Source: Thioalkalivibrio sp. ALJ7 (GTDB lineage Bacteria > Pseudomonadota > Gammaproteobacteria > Ectothiorhodospirales > Ectothiorhodospiraceae). Taken from it: a DNA stretch of 64,000 nucleotides. The notes below the pieces were generated by a model, which saw nothing but the letters and a program-made list of their open reading frames with translations, had not been told where the DNA came from and did not search any database. The number at the start of each line of letters is the position of its first letter. Positions within the stretch are counted from its first letter, which is position 1. The position numbers were made by a program, and so were the translations under genes. Shown here piece by piece: positions 6,235-64,000 of this stretch. The stretch lies in contig NZ_AQXQ01000004.1 in the NCBI RefSeq assembly GCF_000376865.1, forward strand, positions 1-64,000, given 5' to 3'.

Positions 6235-8376
6235 ATGACCGAACGTGACGTGCCGATTGACCCGCAGTCCGTCCGAATCCTGATCGCCGATGACGACCCC
6301 GGCCTGCTCGAGAGCCTGCATAACCTGCTGGCGATCGAGGGTTACCCGGTGCAAACCGCCTCCGGTGGCGGCGCCGCAATCGAAGCCCTGCGCAACCAAC
6401 ATTTTGACCTGCTGCTGTTGGACCTGGCGATGCCCGACCTTGGAGGGCTGGATGTGCTGCGGTTCATACAGGCGGCACAGCTCAAGACTCAGACGGTGGT
6501 CGTCAGCGGAAACAGCACGGTGGAAGACGTCGCCGGCGCCCTCCGAGAAGGTGCCCACGATTACCTGAAAAAGCCCTATGAACCGGCCGAATTGCTGGCA
6601 ACCGTACGCAACGCGCTCCGGCACAAGGCACTGGAAGATACCAATATCGAAATGCGGAGCCGGCTGGAAAAGTCGGAACGCCTGCACCGCATGATCGTGA
6701 ACAATTCCCCGGACATCGTGTTCGTCCTCGATTCCCTGAAGCGGTTTCGGTTTATCAATTCGCGCGTTCACGAACTCCTTGGCCACACGCGCCAGGCATT
6801 GCTGGACACCTCGATCCTCGACCTCGTCGAACCCGATGAACGCGACAAGGCCTCCTACTTCTTCGACCAGGCCTCCCAGCAGCAGGCCCACGTGCGCTCG
6901 GCGGAGATCGCTCTGAGGCCCGCGGAGCCCTCACGCACACGCCACTACTTCGAGGTCGCGGTCTGGCCGACTGCATCCAGCGAAACCTCCGAAGGCGGGG
7001 CCACCGAACCCCTGATCTACGGGACCGCTCGCGATATCACCGAGCGCAAGGAATCCGAGGCCTTCATCAATTTCCAGGCCTACCACGACCTCCTGACGCG
7101 CCTGCCGAATCGAGCCCTGTTTCGAGATCGCGTGGATGTCGCGATCTCCCACGCTCAGCGCACCGGGGCACAGCTCGCCGTCCTGTTCATCGACCTCAAT
7201 CGCTTCAAGGTCATCAACGATTCTCTCGGCCACACGGTGGGAGACCGCCTCTTGCAAGGCGTCGCGCAGCGGCTGCAGTCCTGCATCCGCAAGGGAGATA
7301 CCCTCTCGCGTTTCGGCGGCGACGAGTTCACCTTGCTGATCCCTGGACTGGCGAGCAGTGACGCCGCGATCCAGGTGGCCGACAAGATCCTCGAAAGCCT
7401 GCAGGCCCCGTTCGAAATCGGCGATCACGAGTTGTTCGTTGGCGCCAGCATCGGAATCGCGATCTACCCCGACGCGGGCGACAACCTAGAGGCACTGATC
7501 AAGAACGCCGACATTGCGATGTACCGCGAAAAGAGCACCGGCAAGACCGGGGTCCGCGTCTACAGCCCGGAGATGGGGGGGCACCCGCCGCGGCGACTGC
7601 AGCTGGAGCAGGATATGCGTCGCGCGCTGGAGCGCGACGAGTTCCATATCCTCTACCAACCCCAAGTCGACACCGAAAGCGGTCAAATGGTAGCCGTGGA
7701 GGCCCTGATCCGCTGGGATCACCCTGAGCTGGGCTTACTGGGCCCCGCCGAATTTATCCCGGTGGCGGAGGACACGCGCCTGATCGTGGATCTCGACCGC
7801 CTGACCCTGCGCACGGCCACCCGCGAGATCCAGCGTCACAACCGCGAGGCCGCGCAAGAATTGCGCCTCGCGGTCAACCTCTCCCCGGTACTGGTCGAAC
7901 GTGATGACTTCGTCGAGGACTTTCTCGGCATCCTCGGTGAAATCGGCTTCCCCCCCGATCTACTGGAAGTCGAGATCACCGAAAACCTGTTGATGAGCGA
8001 CACCATGGATACGGTGCACAAATTGAACCGCCTGGGTGCCGCGGGCGTACAGATCGCGGTAGACGACTTCGGGACCGGCTACTCGTCCCTCAGCTACCTG
8101 CAGAAACTGCCGATCCACACGCTAAAAATCGACCGCAGCTTCACCCACACCATCTGCCGAAATGACGAGGCGTGTATCGTCAATGCCATTATCTCGATGG
8201 CGCGTGGGCTGAACATGAATATCGTCGCCGAGGGGGTCGAGACGGAGGCCCACCGCGACTACCTGCGCAATCTGGAATGTCCGATGCTGCAGGGCTTCTT
8301 GTTCGGCCAGCCAGCGCCGCTGCACACACTCCTGCAGGATGACGCCCTCATCGCTCGGCCAGCGGCCTGCAAATAG
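6235..8376 (+). CDS. Response regulator with PAS, GGDEF and EAL domains (c-di-GMP turnover)
   Basis: 713 aa. Residues 13-125 form a receiver domain with acidic pocket (ADDDP), phosphoacceptor Asp63 (LLLLDLAMP) and Lys in YLKKPYEP. A PAS domain spans about 145-265. The GGDEF domain (285-440) has an intact RFGGDEF motif with an inhibitory I-site RxxD (RKGD) exactly five residues before it, so both diguanylate cyclase activity and product inhibition are plausible. The EAL domain (460-700) retains VEALIRW, EITENLL, VDDFGTGYSS, LKIDRSF and AEGVET, so phosphodiesterase activity is also expected. It probably receives phosphate from the upstream HDOD-kinase. Net direction of c-di-GMP control cannot be read from sequence. 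Confidence 0.92.
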   Translation: MTERDVPIDPQSVRILIADDDPGLLESLHNLLAIEGYPVQTASGGGAAIEALRNQHFDLLLLDLAMPDLGGLDVLRFIQAAQLKTQTVVVSGNSTVEDVAGALREGAHDYLKKPYEPAELLATVRNALRHKALEDTNIEMRSRLEKSERLHRMIVNNSPDIVFVLDSLKRFRFINSRVHELLGHTRQALLDTSILDLVEPDERDKASYFFDQASQQQAHVRSAEIALRPAEPSRTRHYFEVAVWPTASSETSEGGATEPLIYGTARDITERKESEAFINFQAYHDLLTRLPNRALFRDRVDVAISHAQRTGAQLAVLFIDLNRFKVINDSLGHTVGDRLLQGVAQRLQSCIRKGDTLSRFGGDEFTLLIPGLASSDAAIQVADKILESLQAPFEIGDHELFVGASIGIAIYPDAGDNLEALIKNADIAMYREKSTGKTGVRVYSPEMGGHPPRRLQLEQDMRRALERDEFHILYQPQVDTESGQMVAVEALIRWDHPELGLLGPAEFIPVAEDTRLIVDLDRLTLRTATREIQRHNREAAQELRLAVNLSPVLVERDDFVEDFLGILGEIGFPPDLLEVEITENLLMSDTMDTVHKLNRLGAAGVQIAVDDFGTGYSSLSYLQKLPIHTLKIDRSFTHTICRNDEACIVNAIISMARGLNMNIVAEGVETEAHRDYLRNLECPMLQGFLFGQPAPLHTLLQDDALIARPAACK

Positions 8377-15429: not shown

Positions 15430-16887
15430 TTAGCGGCGCACGTGCCGCATCAGGCGCTTGCGCTTGTGCTGCTGCCTCGGGGTCAGCTTGTTGCGGCGGC
15501 CGGCAAAGGGATTACGCCCGGAGCGGAATTCCATCCGCATCGGGGTCCCGACCAGCTTCAAATGCTTGCGCAGGAAGTTCTCCAGGTAGCGTTTATAGCT
15601 ACCCGGAAGGGAATCCGTCTGGTTGCCGTGGACCACGATCACTGGCGGGTTCTGCCCCCCCTGGTGAGCGTAGCGCAGCTTGATGCGGCGACCGCTCACC
15701 ATCGGCGGAGCATGCTCCGCCACCGCGGCCTCCAGCAGGCGGGTGAGTTCCGGCGTGGAGACCTTTCGAAAGGCGCTGGCGTGGGCTTCTTTCACATCAT
15801 CCAGCAAGTGCCCGACGTTGGTTCCGTGCAGCGCCGAAATCAGGCGCATGCGGGCGAAGTCCACGAAGCCCAGGCGGCGATCAAGCTCGTCCCGTATACG
15901 CTCGCGGGCATCGTCCCGCATGCCGTCCCACTTGTTCACCGCCAGGACCAGGGCACGCCCGGCCTCGATCACCATCCCCAGCAGGTGCGCATCCTGATCG
16001 GACAGCCCGGCATGGGCATCGACCACCAGGATCACCACATGGGCGGCCTCGATGGCCTGCAGCGTCTTGATCACACTGAATTTTTCGATGACCTCGTGCA
16101 CCCGGGCACGCCGCCGAACACCCGCGGTGTCGATCAGGGTGTAGTCCTGGCCGTCGCGCTCGAAGGGGACAAAGATGCTGTCGCGGGTCGTCCCGGCGAC
16201 ATCGGTCGCGACCACACGCTCGTCACCCAGGATGCGGTTGACCAGAGTCGACTTGCCCACATTGGGACGCCCCACAATGGCCACGCGGATACCCGGCCAG
16301 TCGTCCAGGGCCGCCTGCTGCGACGCCTCGTCGAGACCATCCGTTTCGGCCTCGTCGCCACTGGCCGTGCCCGCCGCCTGGGATGCCCGGCGTTCGGCCG
16401 CCACATCCTTGCGCACCGCCTGCATCAGGCCCTGCACACCGCGCCCGTGAGAGGCCGCGATGGAGGTGACCTCGCCCAGACCCAGCGCATAGAACTCGGC
16501 ACTGACGGAATCGGCATCCAGACCGTCGGTCTTGTTCACGACCAGGCGTGCCTTGACCCCTGCGGCGCGGAGCTGGTCGGCAATCACCTGGTCCTGCGGT
16601 GTCAGTCCATCGCGGGCATCCACCAGCAGCAACACGTGATCGGCTTCTTCGACCGCCCGTTGCGTCTGCTCGGCCATGGCGCGGTCCATCGCCGCACCTT
16701 CCCCGGACAGACCGCCAGTATCCACCACCAAATAGGGAAAATCGCCGACCTTGCCAATCCCGTACTGACGATCACGCGTCAGCCCGGCGACATCGGCCAC
16801 CAGGGCATCGCGCGAACGGGTCAGTTGGTTGAATAACGTCGACTTCCCCACGTTGGGGCGCCCGACAAGGGCGATAACGGGGATCAT
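15430..16887 (-). CDS. der: Ribosome assembly GTPase Der (EngA)
   Basis: 485-aa double GTPase acting in 50S subunit assembly. Two G domains are present: the first with [12 protein letters not shown] at residue 8, DTGG and NKTD; the second with [12 protein letters not shown] near residue 206, DTAG and NKWD. A C-terminal KH-like domain ends in a basic tail ([20 protein letters not shown]). Length and order are normal for gammaproteobacteria. It follows bamB by 49 bp, as in E. coli. Confidence 0.97.
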
Positions 16888-52958: not shown

Positions 52959-53029
52959 TCACTGCGGTTGGTCGCTCATCAAACGCACCTCTTGCCAGCC
53001 TGTTTGCACCCCAGTACCCTTCGCCCCGC

Positions 53030-53235
53030 CTCCAGGTGCCCTGGCGTTCCATCGCCGGGGATAATCGGGAAGCCGGTGCGCGAACTGCCGTTCGCAATGC
53101 CGGCACTGCCCCCGCAACGGTAGGTGAAGACAACGGATCGACAACCACTGCGCCGCAATCCGGCGTGGGAAGGCGATCCGCCCGGGCACCCCCGCCCGCT
53201 TCACGAGTCCGGAGACCGGCCAGGAGGAAACCTGA
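53030..53235 (+). ncRNA. Cobalamin riboswitch
   Basis: In the 524 bp between the peroxidase gene and the porin gene, this segment shows the conserved cobalamin aptamer elements in order: GGGAAGCCGGTG (about 53068), GCACTGCCCCCGCAACGGTA (about 53103), CACTG (about 53146), GGGAAGG (about 53167) and AGTCCGGAGACCGGCC (about 53206). Exact ends are approximate. About 115 nt separate it from the porin start, enough for an expression platform. It should turn off the downstream porin and probably cytochrome c' genes when adenosyl- or other cobalamin is plentiful. Confidence 0.93.
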
Positions 53236-53349
53236 CGCTGCGGCGGGCAAGCGGTCGGGTCGGGCTCGCTGTGTCTATAGTCCCCGACCTCCCCTGGCCC
53301 ACCCAGCGTCGTTCCATCCACGGCGCACGGGGTGTGCGTCCCAGGGAGA

Positions 53350-54480
53350 ATGACCTTGAACAAACCGACCCGACGACCCGGCCGGCCGCCACTCCTGGCT
53401 CCGGCCCCGACCCTACTTGGCCTGTTGATCGCCAGTGGCGGGGCTTCCCCCCTCCAGGCACAGTTCGAGTTCGGCAGCGAAGCCGACGGCTTCGCCATCA
53501 CCCTGGACCCGCTCATCCAGGGCCGCTACGCCATCGAGCGGGGCGACGAGGGAACCACCACCGAATTCGACTTTCGCCGCGCCTGGCTGGATACGACGGG
53601 CACCCTCTTCCACAGCGATCTTAGTTTTCGCCTGCAGCCCGACTTCAGCAGCGGCGAGCTCTCGATGCGCGATGTCTGGCTCCAATACGCACTGACCGAG
53701 TCCCTCGACCTGCGCGCCGGCCAGTTCACCGTGCCCTTCGGCCTGCCGCGGGACATCGGCGGCCCCAACCGGCTCTTCACCGAATTGAGCATCGCGGGGA
53801 ATCAGTTCGAGGTCCCGGCCGGACGCGATACCGGCGTCACCCTACTGGGGGGCGACGGCGACGACCGCGCCTGGGCCATCGGCGTGTTTGACGGTCGCGG
53901 CCGCCTTGACCAGCGCGACGACCGTCCCTCCACATCCGGCCACCTGTTCAGCGCACGCGCCGCGTGGGCCCCGATCGGCGCAGTCCCACGCGACAACACC
54001 ACGCTAGGCCAGGCCGTGGAGCGCACCGTCGCCCTGGGCACCGGAGTACAGGCCGCCAACCGCAACCACCTGCGCGACTGGAGCCGCGGCCTGGCAGACA
54101 CCGTGGCCAACCAGCGCGCCGACTGGGTGACCACTACGGCCGATACCGTCGTCAAGTTCGGGCACACCTCGCTCTCACTGGCCGCTTTCCGGCGCGACGT
54201 CTCTCCGGACAGGACCGCGAGCTACCACGACCTAGGCGCCGAACTGGAACTGGCGCAATCACTGCCAATGGAGGGACTGGAGTTCGCCGCGCGGCACGCC
54301 GTATTGCGCCACGACGCAGGCGACGATCTTGGCACTGACGAGCGCTGGCAGCGTGAATGGGGTGCCGGCCTCAACTTGTATCACCGTGGCCAGCGGCACA
54401 AGACCCAACTGATGTGGCTGGACCGCGACACCGACACCTCGGACTGGGAGCTGCACCTGCAGCACCAGTTCCGCTTCTGA
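53350..54480 (+). CDS. Porin-like outer-membrane protein under B12 riboswitch control
   Basis: 376 aa from ATG 53350; a TTG at 53356 is better spaced from GGGAG and may be the real start. A signal peptide (TLLGLLIASGGASPLQA) is followed by a beta-barrel with alternating polar/hydrophobic strands, FRRAWLDTTGTLFHSDLSFRLQ, SLDLRAGQFTVPFGLPRD, and a terminal HQFRF. It resembles the phosphate-selective OprO/P class, not the TonB-dependent BtuB receptors; no TonB box or plug domain is seen. The riboswitch implies a role in corrinoid, cobalt or precursor uptake. Confidence 0.82.
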   Translation: MTLNKPTRRPGRPPLLAPAPTLLGLLIASGGASPLQAQFEFGSEADGFAITLDPLIQGRYAIERGDEGTTTEFDFRRAWLDTTGTLFHSDLSFRLQPDFSSGELSMRDVWLQYALTESLDLRAGQFTVPFGLPRDIGGPNRLFTELSIAGNQFEVPAGRDTGVTLLGGDGDDRAWAIGVFDGRGRLDQRDDRPSTSGHLFSARAAWAPIGAVPRDNTTLGQAVERTVALGTGVQAANRNHLRDWSRGLADTVANQRADWVTTTADTVVKFGHTSLSLAAFRRDVSPDRTASYHDLGAELELAQSLPMEGLEFAARHAVLRHDAGDDLGTDERWQREWGAGLNLYHRGQRHKTQLMWLDRDTDTSDWELHLQHQFRF

Positions 54481-54501
54481 GAAATGACCGGGAGAATCGA
54501 C

Positions 54502-55062
54502 ATGAACCGGATGCAACCAATCCACCACCCGTTGATAACCACCCTCTTTGCGATCCTGCTGCTGGCTGCCACCGGCAGCCCGGCCACCGCGGAGGTCACT
54601 GTCACAATGCCGGGCCCCTGGGGCGACTATGACGAGACCCTGGACAACCCGGCCACCGTGGACGCCACCGAGGCCTTCCAGCGCTTCCGCCAGCAGAGCA
54701 TGCAGGGCACCTCGGCCACCTACCGCAGCGTCGAACAGATCCTGCGCTACGACGCGCCTTTCGCCGAACGCCTGCCCGACCTGGCCGAAGAACTGGCGCA
54801 GCGGGCCGCGGACATCGACACCTGGTTCGCGCGCGAGACCCCGGCGCGGGACGGCGAACCCGGCGCCCTGCCCGGGGCCTGGGAGGATCCGGAATTCGCG
54901 GACTACAAGGCGGCCTTCGGCGAAGCCACCGCCGAGCTAAAAAGAAAGGTGGACGCGGCTGAAGACCTGGACAACCCGGAGTTTCAAGTCCGCGCCACCG
55001 AGGTGCTGAACGGCGTACGCCACCATTGCCTGGCCTGCCACGACAACTTCCGACGCCGCTGA
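54502..55062 (+). CDS. Cytochrome c'-like exported protein
   Basis: 186 aa from ATG 54502 (GGGAGA six nt upstream). A signal peptide (about residues 1-33, cleavage near ATA-EV) is followed by a four-helix-bundle-like chain with a single haem motif CLACH close to the C-terminus (VRHHCLACHDNFRRR), as in cytochrome c'. It starts 21 bp after the porin gene, so both should be under the cobalamin riboswitch. A redox or ligand-binding role in the periplasm is likely; the reason for B12 control is unclear. Confidence 0.85.
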   Translation: MNRMQPIHHPLITTLFAILLLAATGSPATAEVTVTMPGPWGDYDETLDNPATVDATEAFQRFRQQSMQGTSATYRSVEQILRYDAPFAERLPDLAEELAQRAADIDTWFARETPARDGEPGALPGAWEDPEFADYKAAFGEATAELKRKVDAAEDLDNPEFQVRATEVLNGVRHHCLACHDNFRRR

Positions 55063-55290: not shown

Positions 55291-56586
55291 TCAGTCAGAA
55301 AGGAACAGCGCCGCAACGGCTTCGGGGTTCGAAGGAAAATACGCATGGAGATAACCCGCGGTCAGTCGACCGTCGCGATAAATCGCTTCGGAGGCCGTTC
55401 CTCCGTCACGCGCACGGATGCAATGAACGAGCGGCTCCCGATCGACCTCGGCATGCGTATGGTGGAACGTGTGGCCCCGCAGTTCGCCTTCAGGCAGCGG
55501 GGCGCTTTGCAGCCCGAGCCCCTGCAGCCGCGCCTCCAGGCACGCACGCCCTGGGATCACACCCGCCATAGATGCGCGATGTCCATCGCGGTCGGTCAGC
55601 TCGTCCAGCAGGTAAAGGAATCCGCCGCATTCGGCGAGGAGGGGCCGGCCCCCCAGTTGATGCTGCGCGAGGTCTTCTTTGAGTCCAGTATTAGCCTCCA
55701 GGGCATCCAGGTGGAGTTCCGGGTACCCCCCGGGTAGCCAAACGGCATCGACGTCCGGCAGGCGGTCGCCAGCCACCGGAGAGAAGAACTCCAGCTCGGC
55801 ACCCATCGCACGCAGCAGATCCAGGTTGCCGGGATAGGTAAACGCAAACGCGGCATCTCGAGCGATCGCGATCCGCGTGCCTTCGAGTCTGGGCTCGATC
55901 GCCGGCATCGGCTCCGGCTCGAAGGTGACCGCTGCCGGGAGTTCCGTCACCCCAGCCTCGGCAATCGCCTCGGCGGCGGCTTGCAGGCGAGCATCAAGGT
56001 CGTCGATCTCACCTGCCTGCACCAGGCCCAGATGACGATCCGGCACACTGAGTGCCTCATTGCGCGGTACGGCACCGTAGAAGTGCACGCCCTCGGGCAT
56101 ACTCTCGGCCAGCATCTGGCCATGACGAGCACTCCCCGTGCGATTGGCGATCACACCCGTTAGCGAGAGATCGGAGCGGTAGGTCGCCAACCCATGAACG
56201 ACCGCACCGAAGGTCTGGGCCATACCACTGGCATCGATCAATGCCAGCACCGGCAGGCCAAAACGAACCGCCAGATCCGCCCCTGACGGGTCGCCATCGA
56301 ATAGACCCATGGAACCCTCGACCAGGATCAGGTCGGCTTCCTGCGCGGCCGCGTAGAGCTTCGCCTTGCAGGCGGCCTCGCCCACCATCCATAGGTGTAG
56401 TGGGTCGACCGGATGCCCGGAAGCCTGCTCGAGAATCATCGGATCGAGGAAGTCGGGGCCGGTCTTGAACACCCGCACGCGTAACCCCCGGTTCCTGTGG
56501 TAGCGAGCGATAGCAGCAGTGATCGTGGTCTTGCCCTGTCCCGAGGCCGGGGCAGCAACGAACGCGGCGGGGCAGCTCACACTCAC
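55291..56586 (-). CDS. cobB: Cobyrinate a,c-diamide synthase
   Basis: 431-aa enzyme that amidates carboxylates a and c of cobyrinic acid with glutamine and ATP. The N-terminal P-loop (FVAAPASGQGKTTITAAI) and a C-terminal class I glutamine amidotransferase domain (LPGGYPELH, nucleophile Cys in LLAECGGFLYL, GHTFHHT) are complete. Its start overlaps cobO by 4 bp. It is the last gene of the minus-strand corrinoid cluster. Confidence 0.95.
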   Translation of the reverse strand: MSVSCPAAFVAAPASGQGKTTITAAIARYHRNRGLRVRVFKTGPDFLDPMILEQASGHPVDPLHLWMVGEAACKAKLYAAAQEADLILVEGSMGLFDGDPSGADLAVRFGLPVLALIDASGMAQTFGAVVHGLATYRSDLSLTGVIANRTGSARHGQMLAESMPEGVHFYGAVPRNEALSVPDRHLGLVQAGEIDDLDARLQAAAEAIAEAGVTELPAAVTFEPEPMPAIEPRLEGTRIAIARDAAFAFTYPGNLDLLRAMGAELEFFSPVAGDRLPDVDAVWLPGGYPELHLDALEANTGLKEDLAQHQLGGRPLLAECGGFLYLLDELTDRDGHRASMAGVIPGRACLEARLQGLGLQSAPLPEGELRGHTFHHTHAEVDREPLVHCIRARDGGTASEAIYRDGRLTAGYLHAYFPSNPEAVAALFLSD

Positions 56587-57197
56587 AGCTCGATCCCCTT
56601 CTGTGCCTTGATGCCCGCCTTGAAGGCGTGCTTCACCATCTGGATGTCGCTAACGGTATCCGCGGCGTCGACCAGCGCCTGCGGTGCGGCACGACCAGTG
56701 GTAATCACATGCTGCATCGGCGGGCGCGCGGCCAGCACCTCCAGGACCTCGTCCACGTCCAGGTACTGATATTTCAGCGCGATATGCAGCTCGTCCAGCA
56801 ACACCATGTCGACCGCCGCATCGGTAAGCATGTCGCGGGCATGGGCCCAGGCCTCTTTTGCTGCGGCGACATCCTTGTCGCGGTCCTGGGTCTCCCAGGT
56901 GTAGCCCTCGCCCATCACGTGGTACTGCACGTGGTCCTGACCACGGAAGAAGGCCTCCTCGCCGGTGGCAAACTGACCCTTGATGAACTGCACGATGCCG
57001 ACCTGCATGCCGTGCCCGAGCGCACGGGCCACCATGCCGAAGCCCGACGAGCTCTTACCCTTACCGTTGCCACCCAGCACCAGGAAAACGCCGCGCTCTT
57101 CCTGCGCCTCGGCAATCCGGCGATCGATCACTTCCTTCTTGCGCGCCATGCGCTGCGCGTGGCGTTCGGCCTTGGCCGCGTCGGTATCGTTGGTCAT
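56583..57197 (-). CDS. cobO: Cob(I)yrinic acid a,c-diamide adenosyltransferase (CobO/BtuR type)
   Basis: 204-aa enzyme attaching the 5'-deoxyadenosyl group to corrinoids. P-loop GGNGKGKSSSGFGMVAR near residue 42, VDMVLLDELHIALKYQYLDVDEV and the C-terminal VKHAFKAGIKAQKGIEL are typical. An unrelated PduO-type adenosyltransferase lies at the window end, so the strain encodes two types. Confidence 0.96.
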   Translation of the reverse strand: MTNDTDAAKAERHAQRMARKKEVIDRRIAEAQEERGVFLVLGGNGKGKSSSGFGMVARALGHGMQVGIVQFIKGQFATGEEAFFRGQDHVQYHVMGEGYTWETQDRDKDVAAAKEAWAHARDMLTDAAVDMVLLDELHIALKYQYLDVDEVLEVLAARPPMQHVITTGRAAPQALVDAADTVSDIQMVKHAFKAGIKAQKGIEL

Positions 57198-57254: not shown

Positions 57255-58127
57255 CTACTGGGCCGCCGCCCACTCGGTGTGCCGCGTTTGAAGCTCGGCC
57301 AGTCCATCCAGGATCACCGGTGCCGGGTGCGAGAAATACCCGCTTGGCAGATTCACCACCCTCACCGGGCTCGATGCGACCACCGCTCGGCAGCTGCGAG
57401 CGTCGGACCCAGAGAAGGTGAACACCACGTCGGCGTCATACTGGTTGATCAGATCAGCCAGTTCGTCGGTGTCCTCCGACAGCCTCAGGTGATGCGCACC
57501 TGGCTGGTTCGCAACGACGTCGAATCCCGCGCGGGTGAAGGCATCATGCAGCCAGGTCTTCGGGCCGTACACGTAGGCTTGCGCGCTGCACGAGGACATC
57601 AGGACCGCACGCTCGCGGGAGGCCCCCACGGCATCGGCCGCCTCCTTCCACGCATCGTCGAATTCGGCGGCGCGCACCGCACCGTCGTCCAGGCCCGCAG
57701 CATCCGCAATGCGTTCGAGATTTTCGCGGACGGCATCCATCCCTTCGAAGCCGCCCAGCGCGATGGCCCGGGTCCCGGCCGGCACGGTATCGGCCCAGTC
57801 ATCGCGCTCGACCCAGCTCGAGGTGAACGCCAGATCCGGTTCGACGCGGCCGATCGCCTGCGCGTCCGGGTCCAGAATGCCGCCGGTATCCTCCACGTCG
57901 AGATCATCGTAGCGGCTCGCCCCCACGATGCAGGGGGTCAGGCCCAGGTACTCCAGCGAGTGCGTAATGTACGGTGACTGGCTGACAATCCGCGGGCACT
58001 CGCCCGCTGTCGCCGTTACCGGAAACACCAACCCCGCGGTTAGGACAAGGGCCAGAAACCCGGTCCCCGGGGTCCATGGCAAGCTGCAACCGAAAGCGCG
58101 CGTGTATCGGCAGACCTGAGTGATCAT
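57255..58127 (-). CDS. BtuF-like corrinoid/metal-binding periplasmic protein
   Basis: 290 aa from ATG 58127 (GGGGGAG upstream). A signal peptide (about residues 1-42, ending near ATA-GE) leads into a helical-backbone type substrate-binding fold: PRIVSQSPYITHSLEYLG, VEPDLAFTSSWV, HHLRLSEDTDELADLI. It is closest to BtuF/FecB. No BtuC or BtuD is in the window; its neighbours are DUF2149 and ExbB-like genes. It could bind cobalamin, cobinamide, haem or free cobalt chelates. A frame open farther upstream has no homology. Confidence 0.8.
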   Translation of the reverse strand: MITQVCRYTRAFGCSLPWTPGTGFLALVLTAGLVFPVTATAGECPRIVSQSPYITHSLEYLGLTPCIVGASRYDDLDVEDTGGILDPDAQAIGRVEPDLAFTSSWVERDDWADTVPAGTRAIALGGFEGMDAVRENLERIADAAGLDDGAVRAAEFDDAWKEAADAVGASRERAVLMSSCSAQAYVYGPKTWLHDAFTRAGFDVVANQPGAHHLRLSEDTDELADLINQYDADVVFTFSGSDARSCRAVVASSPVRVVNLPSGYFSHPAPVILDGLAELQTRHTEWAAAQ

Positions 58128-58180
58128 CGGAAACTCCCCCTTGTTTGCTGCCCGCGGGCCAACTCGGCACGCAACCGCGT

Positions 58181-58471
58181 TCACTCGCCGATCAGGATCA
58201 TGCGACCGGTCTCCGGATCGCGGTACACCTGCCCCATGGATTCGTAACCGGAGCCGGTCTCGCCCGCGCCTTCCGGCGGGTCGGGGATCTCCCGGCCCGA
58301 CTCGATCTCGGCACCGCCGCTGGCCGGTTCCAGTCCGCTGCCCGAGGCGGCCATCACCACCATCAGGCCGACGGCGAACACCAGCATGATGTCGGCCAGA
58401 TTGGCCAGCGGGCCCATCGGCTCCTCGTCCGGCGCATCGAAGCGCGAGGCGCGGTAGTGCGGGACCCTCAT
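58181..58471 (-). CDS. DUF2149 membrane protein
   Basis: 96 aa with one membrane helix near the N-terminus (LANLADIMLVFAVGLMVVMAAS), then a periplasmic segment ending in DPETGRMILIGE, as in DUF2149 proteins. The helix has an Asp at its start (NLADIMLVF) like ExbD/TolR. DUF2149 genes are known next to CobN-like and ExbB/TolQ-like genes, so it may be the ExbD partner of the next-door channel. The start overlaps the exbB-like stop by 4 bp. Confidence 0.85.
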   Translation of the reverse strand: MRVPHYRASRFDAPDEEPMGPLANLADIMLVFAVGLMVVMAASGSGLEPASGGAEIESGREIPDPPEGAGETGSGYESMGQVYRDPETGRMILIGE

Positions 58472-58911
58472 GCCGCTGCCTCCAGGCGCTCCATCGCAGC
58501 GTCATACCAACGCCGCCGGAGGCGTCCGAGCAGGAAGCCGAGGATGCCCACCAGTAGCCCCAACACCGTGGTATTGAAGGCCACCGTAACCGCCTGGGCG
58601 AGGATTTCCAGTTCCCCACGCCCCATCGCGGCCAGGCCCGGGCCCAGTGGGATCAGCGTGCCCATCAGCCCGAGCATCGGGCCGATGCGTGCCAGCAGAT
58701 CCGCGCGGTCGATCCGCCGCCGGGCACGGTAGGCCAGCCGTTCAGCATCGCCGCTCAGTTCCAGGCGACGCACCCCCCCGGAGCGTTCACCCAGTGCCAG
58801 CCCCAGCTCCCAGACGGCCACCGCGACCAGCACCAGCAGACCGACGATCACCGGCTCCAGCAGCCAGCGCACTACGGTATCCATCAGTTCCATCGTGATC
58901 GAGAACGGCAT
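58468..58911 (-). CDS. MotA/TolQ/ExbB-type proton channel protein
   Basis: 147 aa with three membrane helices (about 12-35, 78-98 and 106-128). The second and third carry MLGLMGTLIPLGPGLAAM and AVTVAFNTTVLGLLVGILGF, the ExbB/TolQ channel signature. It lacks the large cytoplasmic loop of ExbB (about 240 aa) and is shorter than usual. With DUF2149 it should form a proton-driven motor, and its neighbour cobN suggests what it drives. GAGG precedes ATG 58911. Confidence 0.88.
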   Translation of the reverse strand: MPFSITMELMDTVVRWLLEPVIVGLLVLVAVAVWELGLALGERSGGVRRLELSGDAERLAYRARRRIDRADLLARIGPMLGLMGTLIPLGPGLAAMGRGELEILAQAVTVAFNTTVLGLLVGILGFLLGRLRRRWYDAAMERLEAAA

Positions 58912-58956
58912 TCGCGTTTACCTCGTTACCCTTGGTTCATTAATGACCCCGGCCCC

Positions 58957-59034
58957 GTAGAAGCCTGCTTGCAGGCGAACGCTCCTGCCCGTGTCCGACT
59001 TTGGCAGGGGCTTCGCCTGCGAGCAGGCTTCTAC
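58957..59034. repeat. REP-like inverted pair
   Basis: GTAGAAGCCTGCTTGCAGGC (from 58957, arm to 58979) and its near-complement at 59012-59034 (one mismatch) form a stem with a 32-nt loop. The core equals that of the repeat at 55102-55161. It lies between the CobN-like gene and the ExbB-like gene, in the 144-bp gap. Confidence 0.8.
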
Positions 59035-59055
59035 AGCAAACCGATCCGGCGAGCG

Positions 59056-62000
59056 TTATCGCCTCCGGCCCGCGGCGATACCGCCGAGCAGCAGCAGGAA
59101 CAGCACACCGGCGACCAGCCACGGGAGCCAGGGCATGCCCCCCGCCTCGTCGCCAGCCTCCTGCCCGCCGTCGGCCTCGGCCGATTCGGGGATCTCCTGC
59201 ATCTCTTGCGCCGCCGGGTCTTCCAGCGGCTGGATCTCGGTTACCCGGCTGGGGTCCGACTCCGGTTCGGTACGGTCGATCTGGGCCGCCCCGCGCACCG
59301 CCTCGAAGGCCTCGCGCAGTTCCGGATCGTCCAACCGCTCGGCGACCTCGTCGAGCATCGGATGGTCGGGTCGGGTGTGCCCGCTGCCCGGCAGGCCATG
59401 CTCGGCCACCAGCTCGGCAAAGCGCTCGGACAGCGCCTCCAGCACATCCGCGTCGGCATCCCAGAACCCATAGCTGGCCGCGACCAGGTGCACGGCCTGC
59501 AGGTGCGTCTTCACGTGCACGTTGTGGCCATCGGCCAGGAATTCGTCCAGGCCCAGGTCGTGGCGGTCCCGCAGGTACACGTCGTGCACCTCGTCCCAGA
59601 CCCAGGAGCGGACGATCTCGGGGTTGGTCACCTGCCAGCCCCAGAGGTTATCGACGAAGTCGCGGGCCATGGTCCGCGCCCCGGCATAGCCGTGGTCCAT
59701 CAGCGGCTCGATCCATTGTGGATTGAGGTTCTGACCCTGGAGTTCGCGCATCAGCGCACGACCCAAGGTCTCCACCCGCGGGTCGTCCGGGTCGGCGTGC
59801 TGCAGCACGCGGTTATCCGGCACCGCGCCGCGGATCGACTCCACAGCGGTGGACAGGCCGCCCTGGAAATCAAAGCCGTCGTCGTTATCCAGCAAGCCAT
59901 AGAGGTGAGAGGCACGCCCCAGGTAGGTACGCCCGACCGCGCCCAAGCGGGCCTCGAAAGCCTCGTGCGCCGACTCGCCCGACAGTTCGGCGCCATAGGC
60001 GTGGCCCATGCGACGCAGGTAGGCCGCCCCCAGCTCGGCGCGGTCCTCCCAGGCGCCGGAACGATCAGCGAGCCTGTTGACCCCGGCACCGTAGGCGCCT
60101 GGCGCGGTACCGAACACCCGCAGGGCGGCCTGTTCACCGGCGGTAGCGCCATCGAGCCCGGCTGCGCGCAAGGCCAGGGTGTCCTCCACCCACTGCGCCG
60201 CCACGTCATTGCGCGCAAGCGGCTCGTCGCCCGGATCACGGAGATCCTCGCCGAGCGGGGCCAGGGCCGTTTGCAGGGCTTCTTCCAGCTCGGGGTGCCG
60301 TTCGAGGATGGTCTCCGAGGCACCGTCCAGCGCGAGACGCGCCGCGCGGTCCAGCCAGACCAGTTGATCTTCATAGAGGTCGCGGAACAGGCCCGACGTG
60401 GTGAACAGGGCGTCACGGCGGCGATCGCGGTCGATCTCGTCGAGATCCATGCGTTCCAGGCCCTCGACGATGCCGCGACTGTTCCAGGCTGGGCGAATGC
60501 CCAGCATGTCGAGTCCGAAGCCAACCATCACGCCTTCGTCGCGCACTGTGTCCGAGGCCCACAGGATGATGGCCTCGCTGCCATCCGCCTCCGGGTCGCC
60601 GTGCTCGCGGGCATCGGCCGCCAGCTCCTGACCGATAGCCCAGGCGATCCGGGTTGGTACCAGATCTGCGGCCAGAGCATGGAAGTTGCGTCCGGTCGGC
60701 AGCACTTCCGGAGTCCGGATCGGGTCATTGCCCTGCCCGGGCGGGACAAAACGCCCTTCCAGCGCCGCCAGCAGATGTGCGCGCTCGCTGGCCGGCGAGC
60801 CGCGCAACTTCGCATCCCAGTCGTCGCCGATCTCGTCATCGCCAGCCATCGACGCAAGCATGGTGTCCACAGCCTCGTCGCTCCAGTCACGACCGAACAC
60901 GTGCAAGCCCAGCGGCATCTGGTCCTCCTGCATGTCGGTCAGGTAGTGGCCGATCTCGTGGACCAGCAGCTCCTCGTCCATCTCCGCCAGCGGGGTATCC
61001 CCGTGATCGTGATCATGGCCATGGTGGTCGTGATGATCGCCCGAATCCCCGTGATCATCGTCGCCATGAGCCGCATGAGTCTCCTGATGACCGTGTTCGT
61101 TGGCAGGTTCGTGCGCTTCATCCCCGTGTTCGCGGTGATGGTCCGCGTGGCGATTTTCGTCCGCATGGTCTTCGCCATGTCCGGAGTCGGACTCGTCGTG
61201 GTGCCCCTCGTGATGACCCTCGTGGTGATCGCCGTGGTGATCGCCGTGGTGATCGCCGTGGTGATCGCCGTGGTGATCATCATGGTGATGCCCATGATCG
61301 TGATGATGACCCCGCGCCAGCTCACGCTCGATGGTCTCGGTCAGGCCGAGGTCCTCGATGCGTTCGCGCAGGGTCTGGGCGGCACGCGAGCGCGTCGCGG
61401 CATCCGGCTGCGCGGCGGCCTCGTAGGTCTCCACCAGCTGACGCAGCTCCAGCAGGCTGTCGTACAGCTCGGTGGCCGCCAGCGGCGGGGTCAGGTGGCT
61501 GATCATCACGCCCATGGACCGGCGCTTGGCCTGGATGCCCTCGCCCACGCCGTCGACGATGTAGGGATAGATGATCGGCAGCTCGGCACCCAGGATCTCG
61601 GGGTAGTCGTCCGGGGTCATGCCGGCGCGCCGGCGCGGCAGGAACTCGCGGGTCGAATGGCGCCCGACATAGACCAGCGCATCGGCCTCAAAATGGTTGC
61701 GGATCCAGTGATAGAAGCCGACATACTGATGGGTCGGCGGGAAGGTCGTGTTGGCGTGCAGCAGGCGCTCGCTGACCTCCCAGCCGCGCGGCGGCTGCGG
61801 GCCGATGAACACGTTGCCGAACTCGATCCCCGGGAACAGCATCTCGCCGTCGCGGGTCATCGCCTCGCCGGGGGCCTCGCCCCATCCCGTAAGGCCCGGG
61901 ATGCCGGTACGCACCAGCGCCTTGCGCGAACTCTCCGTAGTCGCGTGTTCGTCCGCACCGGAGAGCGTGGCCTCCCATGCCGCCTCGAACTGGGCGAGCA

Positions 62001-63690
62001 GGTCCAGCGCGCGTTCCTGCGCAGCGTGCGGGTAGCTCTCCAGCATGTGGCGCAGGTCGCCGACCCCGCTGTCCAGCGCGGCCTGGGCAAGCTCGGCCTT
62101 GTCGGCCTTCCAGGCCGACTCCAGACGGGCCTGCAGATAGCCGATCGGGCCATCCACCAGCTCCGCCTGCACGGACTCGGGCAGGCGCTCGAAGTAGGCC
62201 TGATACTGCTCGCGATCCAGCGACGGCACCCGTCCGGCGATCGCATCCAGCGCATCCGCCTGCTCCGGCAGGTTCACCGCGCGATCCTGGATCAGGTCCA
62301 TCAGCGTGTCGGTATCCTCGGGCAGGTCATCCCCGAGGTCGTATCCCGCGGCTTCCAGCCGCTGCAGCATCTCCAACAACGACTCGGGTACATCGAGCTT
62401 GTCCGCGCCGATGTTCTGCCGCCCCGGCGGATGGTTGTAGTACACAACCGCCACGCGCTTGTCAGCGTTGTCCTTTGCGCGCAGGCGCTGCCAGGCCGCC
62501 ATGCGCTCGGCCAGGGCCTCGACCCGTTCGCCCTCGGGCTCCGACAGCCGCAGGCGCACCCCGGTGCGGGCGTCGATCTCCGGCTCACCGGCGGTGGCCA
62601 GTACCATCGGCTGGCTCATCCCCTGCAGCTCAGGCATGGCCACGTGGTAATGCACCTTGTCCCAGGGGATCCCTTCGTGGGACAACTGCCACTGCAGCGT
62701 GCTGACATCCGCCAGGCGGATCCCCTTGACCACCGGCACATCCAGCTCGCCGAAGGCCTCGGCCACAGCCTCGCGGTTGCCGCCGCCACCGACGACAAAG
62801 TCCTGCAGGCTCACGATCCCGGCCAGCTCGGCCGGGGCCGCGCGCTCGGCCAGCTGCTCCACCGCCTCGCGGCTGGCGCCACCCCAGCGCGCCAGCACGA
62901 CAAAGCACTGTAGGCCGCGCTGTTCCAGCGCCTCGCAGCTCGTATCCAGCAGGGCCCGATCGCCCGGGCGGTCGCCGGTATCCAGGTCCAGCAGTGCGAT
63001 AGCCGGGCCTTCGTCGAGTCCGAGATCCCCGGGATCGGCGCTGGAAACCCCATCCCGGTAGTAGCGGATGGTCTCGCGCGGATCCGGATCGGGTACTTCG
63101 ATTGCATGCCCGCCGGCTGCCGCCAGCCAGCGCATCAGTCCTTCCATGCTCTCCGGGGTGCGCCCCTGATAGAAGGCGCGGCCGGTCAGCCACTCCGCCT
63201 GCTCTGCAAAACGTTCCTTTTGTTCCGCCAGGTGCTCGCGCGGATCCGCCCCGGGTTCGGGGTTTTCCGCCAGTTCGGTGCGCGCATCGTCGTCCAGGCC
63301 GGCCAGCACCAACTCGCCATCGAGACGCGACAGGGCGGTCAGGCGGCGTTCGCTGTTGATCGCCAGCAGCGCCGCGCCGCCGGCGGGAGGCTGCTCGCGC
63401 AACAGGCGCTCCAGACGCCCCGCCTGGTCGCCGAACACGGCGGCCACCAGCACCGCATCGGACTCGGCCCACAGGGCCGCAACGGCGGCGTCGTCTTTGT
63501 CGGCCAGCTGCTCCGGCGTGCGCAGGACGACTTCCGCGTCGGGATGGGCCTCGAGAAAGCGATGGGCGCCGGCGGCAACCTCGGCCGCCGAGCGATCCGA
63601 CACGATGCCCGTGACCTGCGGACCGGCCCAGGCCGAACCTGCCCATAGGCAGGTGGCGAACAACAAAAGGGTGCGTTTCCAGATGAACAT
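59056..63690 (-). CDS. cobN: CobN-family protein, exported and membrane-anchored, with His-rich insert
   Basis: 1544 aa, longer than ordinary CobN (about 1270). The N-terminus is a signal peptide (MFIWKRTLLLFATCLWAGSA, cleavage near AWA-GP). The C-terminus ends with one membrane helix and a basic tail (WLVAGVLFLLLLGGIAAGRRR). CobN sequence in between includes HQYVGFYHWIRNHF, DALVYVGRHSTREFLP, IIYPYIVDGVGEGIQAKRR and GLHVFGRDW. Residues about 793-897 are a His/Asp-rich insert with HHGD repeats and HHDHHGHDHDHGD, very likely metal-binding. This layout places the catalytic part in the periplasm. Cytoplasmic CobN works with CobS/CobT, which are absent; the HmuS-like haem dechelatase of Bacteroidetes is a closer layout. 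The name is therefore by family only. Confidence 0.85.
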   Translation of the reverse strand: MFIWKRTLLLFATCLWAGSAWAGPQVTGIVSDRSAAEVAAGAHRFLEAHPDAEVVLRTPEQLADKDDAAVAALWAESDAVLVAAVFGDQAGRLERLLREQPPAGGAALLAINSERRLTALSRLDGELVLAGLDDDARTELAENPEPGADPREHLAEQKERFAEQAEWLTGRAFYQGRTPESMEGLMRWLAAAGGHAIEVPDPDPRETIRYYRDGVSSADPGDLGLDEGPAIALLDLDTGDRPGDRALLDTSCEALEQRGLQCFVVLARWGGASREAVEQLAERAAPAELAGIVSLQDFVVGGGGNREAVAEAFGELDVPVVKGIRLADVSTLQWQLSHEGIPWDKVHYHVAMPELQGMSQPMVLATAGEPEIDARTGVRLRLSEPEGERVEALAERMAAWQRLRAKDNADKRVAVVYYNHPPGRQNIGADKLDVPESLLEMLQRLEAAGYDLGDDLPEDTDTLMDLIQDRAVNLPEQADALDAIAGRVPSLDREQYQAYFERLPESVQAELVDGPIGYLQARLESAWKADKAELAQAALDSGVGDLRHMLESYPHAAQERALDLLAQFEAAWEATLSGADEHATTESSRKALVRTGIPGLTGWGEAPGEAMTRDGEMLFPGIEFGNVFIGPQPPRGWEVSERLLHANTTFPPTHQYVGFYHWIRNHFEADALVYVGRHSTREFLPRRRAGMTPDDYPEILGAELPIIYPYIVDGVGEGIQAKRRSMGVMISHLTPPLAATELYDSLLELRQLVETYEAAAQPDAATRSRAAQTLRERIEDLGLTETIERELARGHHHDHGHHHDDHHGDHHGDHHGDHHGDHHEGHHEGHHDESDSGHGEDHADENRHADHHREHGDEAHEPANEHGHQETHAAHGDDDHGDSGDHHDHHGHDHDHGDTPLAEMDEELLVHEIGHYLTDMQEDQMPLGLHVFGRDWSDEAVDTMLASMAGDDEIGDDWDAKLRGSPASERAHLLAALEGRFVPPGQGNDPIRTPEVLPTGRNFHALAADLVPTRIAWAIGQELAADAREHGDPEADGSEAIILWASDTVRDEGVMVGFGLDMLGIRPAWNSRGIVEGLERMDLDEIDRDRRRDALFTTSGLFRDLYEDQLVWLDRAARLALDGASETILERHPELEEALQTALAPLGEDLRDPGDEPLARNDVAAQWVEDTLALRAAGLDGATAGEQAALRVFGTAPGAYGAGVNRLADRSGAWEDRAELGAAYLRRMGHAYGAELSGESAHEAFEARLGAVGRTYLGRASHLYGLLDNDDGFDFQGGLSTAVESIRGAVPDNRVLQHADPDDPRVETLGRALMRELQGQNLNPQWIEPLMDHGYAGARTMARDFVDNLWGWQVTNPEIVRSWVWDEVHDVYLRDRHDLGLDEFLADGHNVHVKTHLQAVHLVAASYGFWDADADVLEALSERFAELVAEHGLPGSGHTRPDHPMLDEVAERLDDPELREAFEAVRGAAQIDRTEPESDPSRVTEIQPLEDPAAQEMQEIPESAEADGGQEAGDEAGGMPWLPWLVAGVLFLLLLGGIAAGRRR
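61221..61280 (-). repeat. 12-bp tandem repeats coding HHGD in the CobN-like protein
   Basis: Five head-to-tail copies of CGTGGTGATCGC (the last with a changed end) lie within the His-rich insert. Each reads as HHGD or the like on the minus strand. Near-identity at DNA level shows recent slippage expansion. Confidence 0.9.
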
Positions 63691-63813: not shown

Positions 63814-64000
63814 TCAGCCGCGCTGATTAGCCGGCTGCCAGAGGACTTCCGCGCCGTTTTCGTGACGCGCGAGCACACGGCAGAGCACGAACAGCAGATC
63901 CGACAGGCGGTTAATGTAGGCCAGCGAATTTGGCCGCAACGCCTCATGGTGGTTAAGCGCCACCAACCGCCGCTCGGCACGGCGGCACACCGTTCGCGCG
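63814..64000 (-). CDS. PduO-type cob(I)alamin adenosyltransferase, C-terminal part
   Basis: The last 61 codons of a gene that enters from beyond the window end; only the C-terminus is visible. [13 protein letters not shown] and [20 protein letters not shown] are the highly conserved PduO helix that binds ATP and cob(I)alamin. Stop TGA is at 63816-63814. It is on the same strand as the CobN-like gene, 123 bp upstream of it, and probably begins the corrinoid cluster. Confidence 0.88.

Follow-up and report, generated by a model that had tools for sequence, protein, structure and literature searches.

How could a chelatase of the CobN family work outside the cytoplasm, and on which substrate, when it is encoded among genes for vitamin B12? 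The question is raised by a contig of Thioalkalivibrio sp. ALJ7 (genome of 2.71 Mb), whose positions 1-64000 are the stretch analysed here (the window). The minus-strand gene at 59056..63690 encodes an exported CobN-family protein of 1544 residues, which adjoins genes for an ExbB/TolQ-type channel and a DUF2149 protein. HmuS, an exported protein of the same superfamily, is a haem de-chelatase (PMC12583661). Tree, residues and gene context set the ALJ7 protein apart from both HmuS and standard cobaltochelatases, in a separate clade of exported class I chelatases. We read it as a proton-driven periplasmic enzyme that would insert cobalt into metal-free corrin, and give this reading a probability of about 0.43.

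Results

A chelatase body predicted to be exported and membrane-anchored

The CobN-family protein matches PF02514 at 787.6 bits. It begins with a putative signal peptide at codons 1-22 (63625-63690, minus strand), read by eye from the N-terminus MFIWKRTLLLFATCLWAGSAWA followed by GP, and ends with a membrane helix at codons 1522-1540 (59071-59127, minus strand) located in a hydropathy window, which bears out the signal peptide and C-terminal anchor described in an earlier note on this DNA. The protein is predicted to be exported and membrane-anchored, with its body facing the periplasm, and no sign of a cytoplasmic location was found.

Relatives were drawn from two samples. In a class survey of 274 genomes, 31 had a match with E of 1e-30 or lower, and the full-length exported kind occurs in 10 of these, ALJ7 included; a wider scan with one genome per species gave 293 relatives, the best 80 of which were retained as 78 loci. 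These best 80 come from Thioalkalivibrio, Halomonas and kin, Marinobacter, Alcanivorax, Nitrospinota, Nitrospira, Myxococcota and others. The nearest by protein are 11 Thioalkalivibrio loci whose best segments are 70-86% identical (81-86% in nine of them), although very near records may be missing. PF02514 is absent from one genome of the same genus (G223). A hydrophobic N-terminus is present in nearly all of the 77 alignment rows and the C-terminal helix in 55 of them.

The modelled chelatase body was matched to CobN, ChlH and HmuS structures. Foldseek ranks HmuS first and VIA-align ranks CobN first, and with the two methods in disagreement the fold does not discriminate between substrates. 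Two positions are invariant across the 77 rows: His678 (codon 61657..61659, minus strand), the aligned counterpart of HmuS His-538, and Asp1271 (codon 59878..59880, minus strand), which occupies the place of HmuS His-1209.

A His/Asp/Glu-rich insert, overlooked by the earlier note and read directly from the sequence, spans about codons 795-896 (61003..61308, minus strand). It is modelled at a predicted local distance difference test score of 25-34, contains 40 His within a 121-residue stretch, and may bind metal. Insert regions with at least 12 His occur in 19 of the 77 rows, from Thioalkalivibrio, Vreelandella utahensis, Halospina, Halovibrio, Aquisalimonas, and metagenome-assembled genomes of an Alcanivorax and a Halomonadaceae member; none of the nine class relatives has one, which rules the insert out as a family-defining trait. 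In partial alignments it seems to lie before the GLHVFG motif and the Met-rich insert of HmuS after it, so the two may not occupy equivalent places.

A clade apart from HmuS and CobN

A tree on 638 columns, with HmuS entered from two segments and support read per split, recovers three groups: the B12-type exported clade (support 100), cytoplasmic CobN with ChlH (97), and HmuS with other exported CobN proteins (84). It leaves the branching order among them open. The CobN-looking gene of a same-family genome, G106, groups with ChlH. All NCBIfam cut-offs for CobN are missed, the best match reaching 576.6 bits against 1619 and TIGR02257 giving 501.4 against 822. The CobN of the ATP-driven CobNST complex (PDB 7c6o, 9uk9, 9fpc) shares the PF02514 chelatase body, whereas the ALJ7 protein is exported and anchored, has motor neighbours in place of CobS/CobT, and belongs to a clade with GRHST where the superfamily motif is HFG(T/A)HG.

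The resemblance to HmuS of Bacteroidota (PDB 9d26) lies in layout: both systems combine an exported, anchored CobN-family body with an ExbB/TolQ-type channel (HmuU) and a DUF2149 protein (HmuV) (PMC12583661). The close kinship proposed in the earlier note does not hold. Apart from the separate clade, the HmuS His-1209 position is Asp here, as in four of six cytoplasmic CobN rows (by eye), and the His-254 position, aligned through locus L139, is Asp, Asn, Gly or Tyr in all 77 rows and never His. The insert is His-rich in ALJ7 and His-rich or missing in relatives, whereas that of HmuS is Met-rich; with 0-2 Met in the region in all 77 rows, the HmuS-type insertion is absent. The Met-rich insert is reported as confined to HmuS, and most remaining clusters of the superfamily as not reliably annotatable (PMC12583661). 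The HmuS operon carries hmuY, HmuR and iron control, whereas the ALJ7 operon carries a cobalamin riboswitch, btuB and B12 genes; no HmuT/DUF2162-type or HmuY/HmuR gene lies between its riboswitch and cobB. HmuS membership thus fails on residues, insert and gene context. Overall residue likeness gives no guide to the substrate, with the clade matching HmuS in 17 and CobN in 14 of 50 discriminating columns.

Pseudomaricurvus holds both kinds, a B12-clade protein (L133) and an HmuS-motif protein (L139, 8838-14800; motif LSLDHVYEFMGG) that groups with B. theta HmuS at support 100 and adjoins an ExbB-type gene; L139 is gammaproteobacterial, and HmuS has been described mainly from Bacteroidota. Alkalilimnicola carries, besides a B12-type exported CobN (L114), a further exported CobN accompanied by ExbB and full-length DUF2149 (L137, 8155-13648), adjoined by a bacterioferritin-like gene (by eye). 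On a Cupriavidus plasmid (L142, 5008-14093), exported-type and cytoplasmic-type CobN frames stand side by side.

A putative ExbB-DUF2149 motor that co-occurs with the anchor helix

Next to cobN on the minus strand are a short ExbB/TolQ-type channel gene (58468..58911; 147 residues; PF01618, MotA_ExbB, 39.7 bits) and a DUF2149 gene (58181..58471; 96 residues; PF09919, 35.6 bits over only 22 profile positions), so the neighbours named earlier are confirmed by Pfam; the three genes are adjacent in 9 of 9 class relatives and 53 of the 77 rows, which exceeds a chance arrangement. The channel strongly conserves the motifs PMLGLMGTLIPLGPG and TTV.GL across 58 aligned sequences. The DUF2149 protein has a single helix whose Asp27 is identical in 56 of 56 aligned relatives, which upholds the ExbD-like Asp pointed out before, and we take this helix to resemble the Asp helix of ExbD/TolR. 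A PF01618 channel and a partner helix with a conserved Asp are both present, as in motors of the ExbB-ExbD and TolQ-TolR type.

C-terminal helix, ExbB and DUF2149 occur together in 53 of the 77 rows. All three are missing in 22 rows, all from Marinobacter, which keep the hydrophobic N-terminus; the remaining two rows lie at contig edges, giving concordance of anchor and motor in 75 of 75 informative rows. The joint loss in Marinobacter was probably a single event, and across whole Marinobacter genomes the DUF2149 loss is judged from the weak PF09919 model and locus BLAST. That model is insensitive as a genome-wide marker, matching 22 of 31 genomes and missing G274, G279 and G285, in which DUF2149 was found by locus BLAST. 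The joint presence and absence fits a motor acting on the CobN anchor helix, much as TonB-type motors act on theirs, and lends indirect support to a coupling of proton flow to movement of CobN.

Among 14 control genomes, a DUF2149 match was found only in Methanosarcina acetivorans, an organism without an outer membrane. The CobN cluster of Trichlorobacter (Geobacter) lovleyi plasmid pSZ77/pGLOV01 shares with ALJ7 the B12 context, adjoining DUF2149 and ExbB, and the lack of CobS/CobT (PMC3403914); it differs in its tree branch and in having a DUF2162-ExbB-DUF2149-CobN set, whose DUF2162 presumably corresponds to HmuT, beside a separate ExbB-ExbD-TonB set. The separate plasmid sets and the Methanosarcina match therefore suggest that DUF2149-ExbB serves CobN and not only an outer-membrane receptor.

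AAA+ partners were sought in the genomes. CobT (PF06213) has no match in ALJ7, G121, G236, G274, G275, G277 or G278, in a search that did not include CobS and ChlD; of the earlier statement that CobS and CobT are lacking, the CobT part thus extends to the whole ALJ7 genome. A search of 14 genomes with exported CobN gave no close ChlI/BchI relative, whereas the positive control G106 scored 218.6 bits at 50% identity; the best ChlI/BchI-type match in ALJ7 has 45.2 bits and 33% identity.

A probable operon under cobalamin riboswitch control

The gene order is cobalamin riboswitch, btuB, pduO, cobN, exbB, DUF2149, btuF-like, cobO, cobB, which substantiates the link to B12 genes drawn earlier. The start of the run, missed by the earlier note, lies beyond the window: a riboswitch at contig 66334-66573 (RF00174, 92.1 bits) and a btuB-like gene at contig 64373-66193, assigned by inspection and by BLAST matches to proteins annotated as TonB-dependent receptors. 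The PduO-type adenosyltransferase gene (PF01923, 195.8 bits) has its 3' part in the window (63814..64000) and reaches contig position 64368. Beyond DUF2149 follow the genes for a BtuF-like periplasmic binding protein of 290 residues (57255..58127; open reading frame 57255-58619, likely start 58127), a CobO/BtuR-type corrinoid adenosyltransferase (56583..57197; PF02572, 206.8 bits) and a CobB/CbiA-type cobyrinic acid a,c-diamide synthase (55291..56586; NCBIfam PRK01077, 416.5 bits, cut-off 254); these, like pduO, are on the minus strand. Intergenic gaps range from -4 to 144 bases, and a single operon under B12 control is therefore very likely.

The reading frame of the BtuF-like neighbour stands, and its family label is weak: it has no Pfam match, and NCBIfam matches stay below cut-off (38 bits against 325; TroA_like 25.9 against 30). 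The lack of BtuCD reported before holds for the operon and not for the genome, as another contig (C10) carries a FecCD permease gene (289.5 bits) with adjoining ATPase (BtuD-type) and binding-protein (BtuF-type) genes, both assigned by eye. The same contig encodes a BluB-like nitroreductase and a CobC-like aminotransferase, along with other genes of B12 type (several by eye). The missing BtuCD is therefore only a local feature, and the idea that CobN replaces the permease of a BtuF without BtuCD is ruled out.

A riboswitch above gathering score lies upstream in ALJ7 and in 7 of the 9 class relatives; in the other two, matches below threshold (30.1 and 22.4 bits) immediately precede cobN. In 30 further genomes, 27 of 30 loci have a riboswitch upstream in the same direction, with 2 of the 27 below gathering score, the contig assigned by coordinates only in 8, and a distance of 7.5 kb in L117. 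The contig ends close upstream in two of the three loci without one (L127, L135) and not in the third (L121). At six loci, two of them sub-threshold, the riboswitch sits 39-154 bp before cobN itself, and the control is therefore more than a by-product of a neighbouring btuB.

A second cobalamin riboswitch (87.1 bits) heads the plus-strand stretch 53017-55062, followed by a Porin_O_P-type porin gene (53332-54480) and a cytochrome c'-type gene (54484-55062). A similar porin in T. versutus (L155, 13330-14445) is accompanied by a riboswitch match at G274:C15:144626-144860, and the exported CobN and the B12-controlled porin may be parts of one uptake system. At L044 (13347-15676), the DUF2149 gene and a receptor-like gene are separated by a thiamine pyrophosphate riboswitch.

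Salvagers, ring makers and an embedded exporter

Corrin-ring makers need CbiC. It was found in 4 of 31 genomes (not in ALJ7) and in 4 of 12 (one of these, G106, without exported CobN), so that CbiC is present in 7 of 39 distinct genomes with exported CobN, G289 and G202 being treated as a single genome; most examined hosts therefore look like salvagers. The seven ring makers (G121, G236, G089, G274, G275, G277, G278) all have CobG-like genes in their ring clusters by BLAST with the T. versutus protein, and all three tested (G121, G089, G274) pass the NCBIfam CobG cut-off. CobG is a marker of the oxygen-dependent route. There the ring stays metal-free until a final cobalt insertion by the ATP-driven CobNST (PMC7689651). 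In the 10 class genomes, no PF02514 gene other than the exported one was found; this holds for the ring makers G121, G236 and G089.

All seven exported-CobN ring clusters contain an ATP-binding cassette type 2 (ABC-2) ATPase and permease between cbiD and cobG or cbiC. The permease is above the PRK15066 cut-off in both cases tested and presumably resembles E. coli YadH. It was found in none of 26 control CbiC clusters without exported CobN, three of which have only generic ATPase matches (72-105 bits); 11 of these controls come from genomes with another CobN/ChlH-family match, and five control contigs are shorter than 10 kb. The contrast of 7/7 with 0/26 gives a Fisher value of 2.3e-7, uncorrected for kinship. 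CobG-like matches occur in 2 of the 26 controls. Relatives of CbtA, CobW and ChlI were found in none of the seven ring clusters, and in 7, 1 and 2 of the 26 controls, respectively.

Among the 11 Thioalkalivibrio loci, a ring block with the ABC-2 pair follows cobB in seven and L078 ends after cbiD; no block follows in L064, L067 or L070, nor does one in ALJ7 itself. CobB identity to ALJ7 across loci L059-L078 is 89-90% in the three without a block and 76-80% in the eight with one, so that strains carrying the downstream ring block have a different cobB allele from those lacking it. CobB and CobO, the next-step enzymes, are encoded in the same gene run as the exported CobN, and so is btuFCD in many relatives. 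Among the matches listed, CobB occurs in 4 of 7 ring-less genomes with exported CobN and 13 of 238 without (Fisher 5e-4), a soft count in which TIGR00379 matches were split by bit score, with 230-318 taken as CobB and those above 318 presumably DsrN-like.

In L006, two unrelated open reading frames (7111-8196 and 16066-16473) have nearly identical first ~50 residues, which points to a dispersed DNA repeat.

Discussion

Location, B12 control and motor association can be read from the sequence; from these and the gene context we infer the direction of metal transfer and the identity of metal and corrin. In the mechanism that we favour, a CobN-fold chelatase made under B12 scarcity through the riboswitch would be exported and held in the inner membrane by its anchor, drawing its energy from the proton motive force. 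The ExbB-DUF2149 pair would act on the C-terminal helix of the chelatase, standing in for the ATP-driven CobS/CobT or ChlI/ChlD ring; the periplasm is ATP-free, and an ATP-driven CobS/CobT ring therefore could not work there. In the periplasm, Co(II) would be inserted into metal-free corrin; members with a His-rich insert could use it to gather this metal. In ALJ7 this corrin would arrive from outside through BtuB, as salvage; in ring makers of the CobG route, the ABC-2 exporter from within the ring cluster would supply it. Once loaded with cobalt, the corrin would re-enter through BtuFCD and be finished by CobB, CobO/PduO and later enzymes. The riboswitch, CobB and CobO, the CobG pathway and the embedded exporter argue for cobalt insertion over removal, a choice that the earlier note had left open, and the CobN-type Asp in place of HmuS His-1209 counts in the same direction. 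Late cobalt insertion needs the ATP-driven CobNST in known systems (PMC7689651).

Several points weigh against periplasmic cobalt insertion. We infer the reaction itself, and an ABC-2 pair exporting metal-free corrin is suggested by its position; a natural supply of metal-free corrin is assumed for ring-less hosts, and 32 of the 39 exported-CobN hosts lack CbiC. Two hosts have a CobT-family match above cut-off, the ring maker G089 (52.9 bits) and the salvager G143 (80.5 bits). Early cobalt insertion through CbiK/CbiX is possible in the ring makers. The seven ring makers are partly related, and the PF02514 search covered three of them, G121, G236 and G089. The limited spread of the His-rich insert (19 of 77 rows) and the lack of a lean towards CobN in the discriminating columns (17 for HmuS, 14 for CobN) also count here. 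Marinobacter retains the exported CobN without anchor or motor genes nearby, and the motor is therefore not always needed.

The main rival to cobalt insertion is a helper of corrinoid uptake, which would bind cobalamin or its precursors from BtuB and pass them to BtuF or the inner membrane, with ExbB-DUF2149 driving release and no metal moved. BtuFCD alone serves uptake in other bacteria, and the invariance of the catalytic-site His678 speaks against a mere carrier. A helper would suit the riboswitch, btuB and often btuFCD in one gene run, and the predominance of hosts without the ring marker. It accounts for the salvagers and fails for the ring makers, leaving the three CobG genomes without other CobN and the embedded exporter unexplained. 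A transport role has been suggested for the similar cluster on pSZ77, whose CobN without CobST has an exact role stated as unknown (PMC3403914). We regard uptake help as possible, with the odds against it. An improbable reading is that the protein removes cobalt or another metal from corrinoids or other metallo-tetrapyrroles and frees it for uptake, as HmuS does with haem iron. Cobalt is very firmly held in corrins, B12 shortage would be an odd trigger for destroying corrinoids, the adjoining CobB and CobO build rather than break them, and the clade differs from HmuS at His-1209 and His-254. In its favour are the exported layout and kind of neighbours shared with HmuS, and the de-chelatase activity of that known exported member (PMC12583661).

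That the protein is a true HmuS ortholog acting on haem, placed in a B12 operon by chance, is very improbable. PF02514, export and the adjoining ExbB and DUF2149 would all fit, but the fully supported separate clade, the riboswitch control, the absence of HmuS-specific residues and Met-rich insert, and the presence of both types in Pseudomaricurvus do not. Least credible of all is an ordinary cytoplasmic cobaltochelatase with a misread N-terminus: Pfam and the plasmid annotation do label such proteins CobN, but nearly all rows start with a hydrophobic segment, 55 of 77 end in a membrane helix, every NCBIfam CobN cut-off is missed, and the ALJ7 genome gave no CobT and no close ChlI.

Among other named systems, BtuS proteins are likewise exported, CobN-like, outside CobN and ChlH, and linked to metallo-tetrapyrrole salvage, whereas those studied in B. 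fragilis act in haem-iron use (PMC6460266); a BtuS of M. barkeri is treated in PMC10846266. A literature search, with subscription papers mostly outside its coverage, returned no description of an exported cobaltochelatase in B12 metabolism or of this clade. HmuU and HmuV have been assigned to powering HmuR (PMC12583661), and a 2026 paper on P. gingivalis leaves their effect on HmuS open in its available text (PMC13227078).

Periplasmic cobalt insertion, if true, would mean that metal insertion can be powered in a new way, outside the cytoplasm and on a proton gradient. To our knowledge, the metal-inserting class I chelatases characterised so far rely on an AAA+ ring driven by ATP. It would also suggest a role for ExbB and DUF2149 beside HmuS. 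A broader proposal, conceivable yet doubtful, is that in some Gammaproteobacteria B12 synthesis leaves the cytoplasm midway, through ABC-2 corrin export, periplasmic cobalt insertion and return by BtuFCD, and that relatives which have lost the ring genes, ALJ7 among them, live on metal-free corrin that such producers release. The three searched ring-making genomes without another CobN, with an exporter in the ring clusters where the model needs one, offer a direct test. If cobalt is inserted as we propose, a step of B12 synthesis or salvage would be placed in the periplasm.

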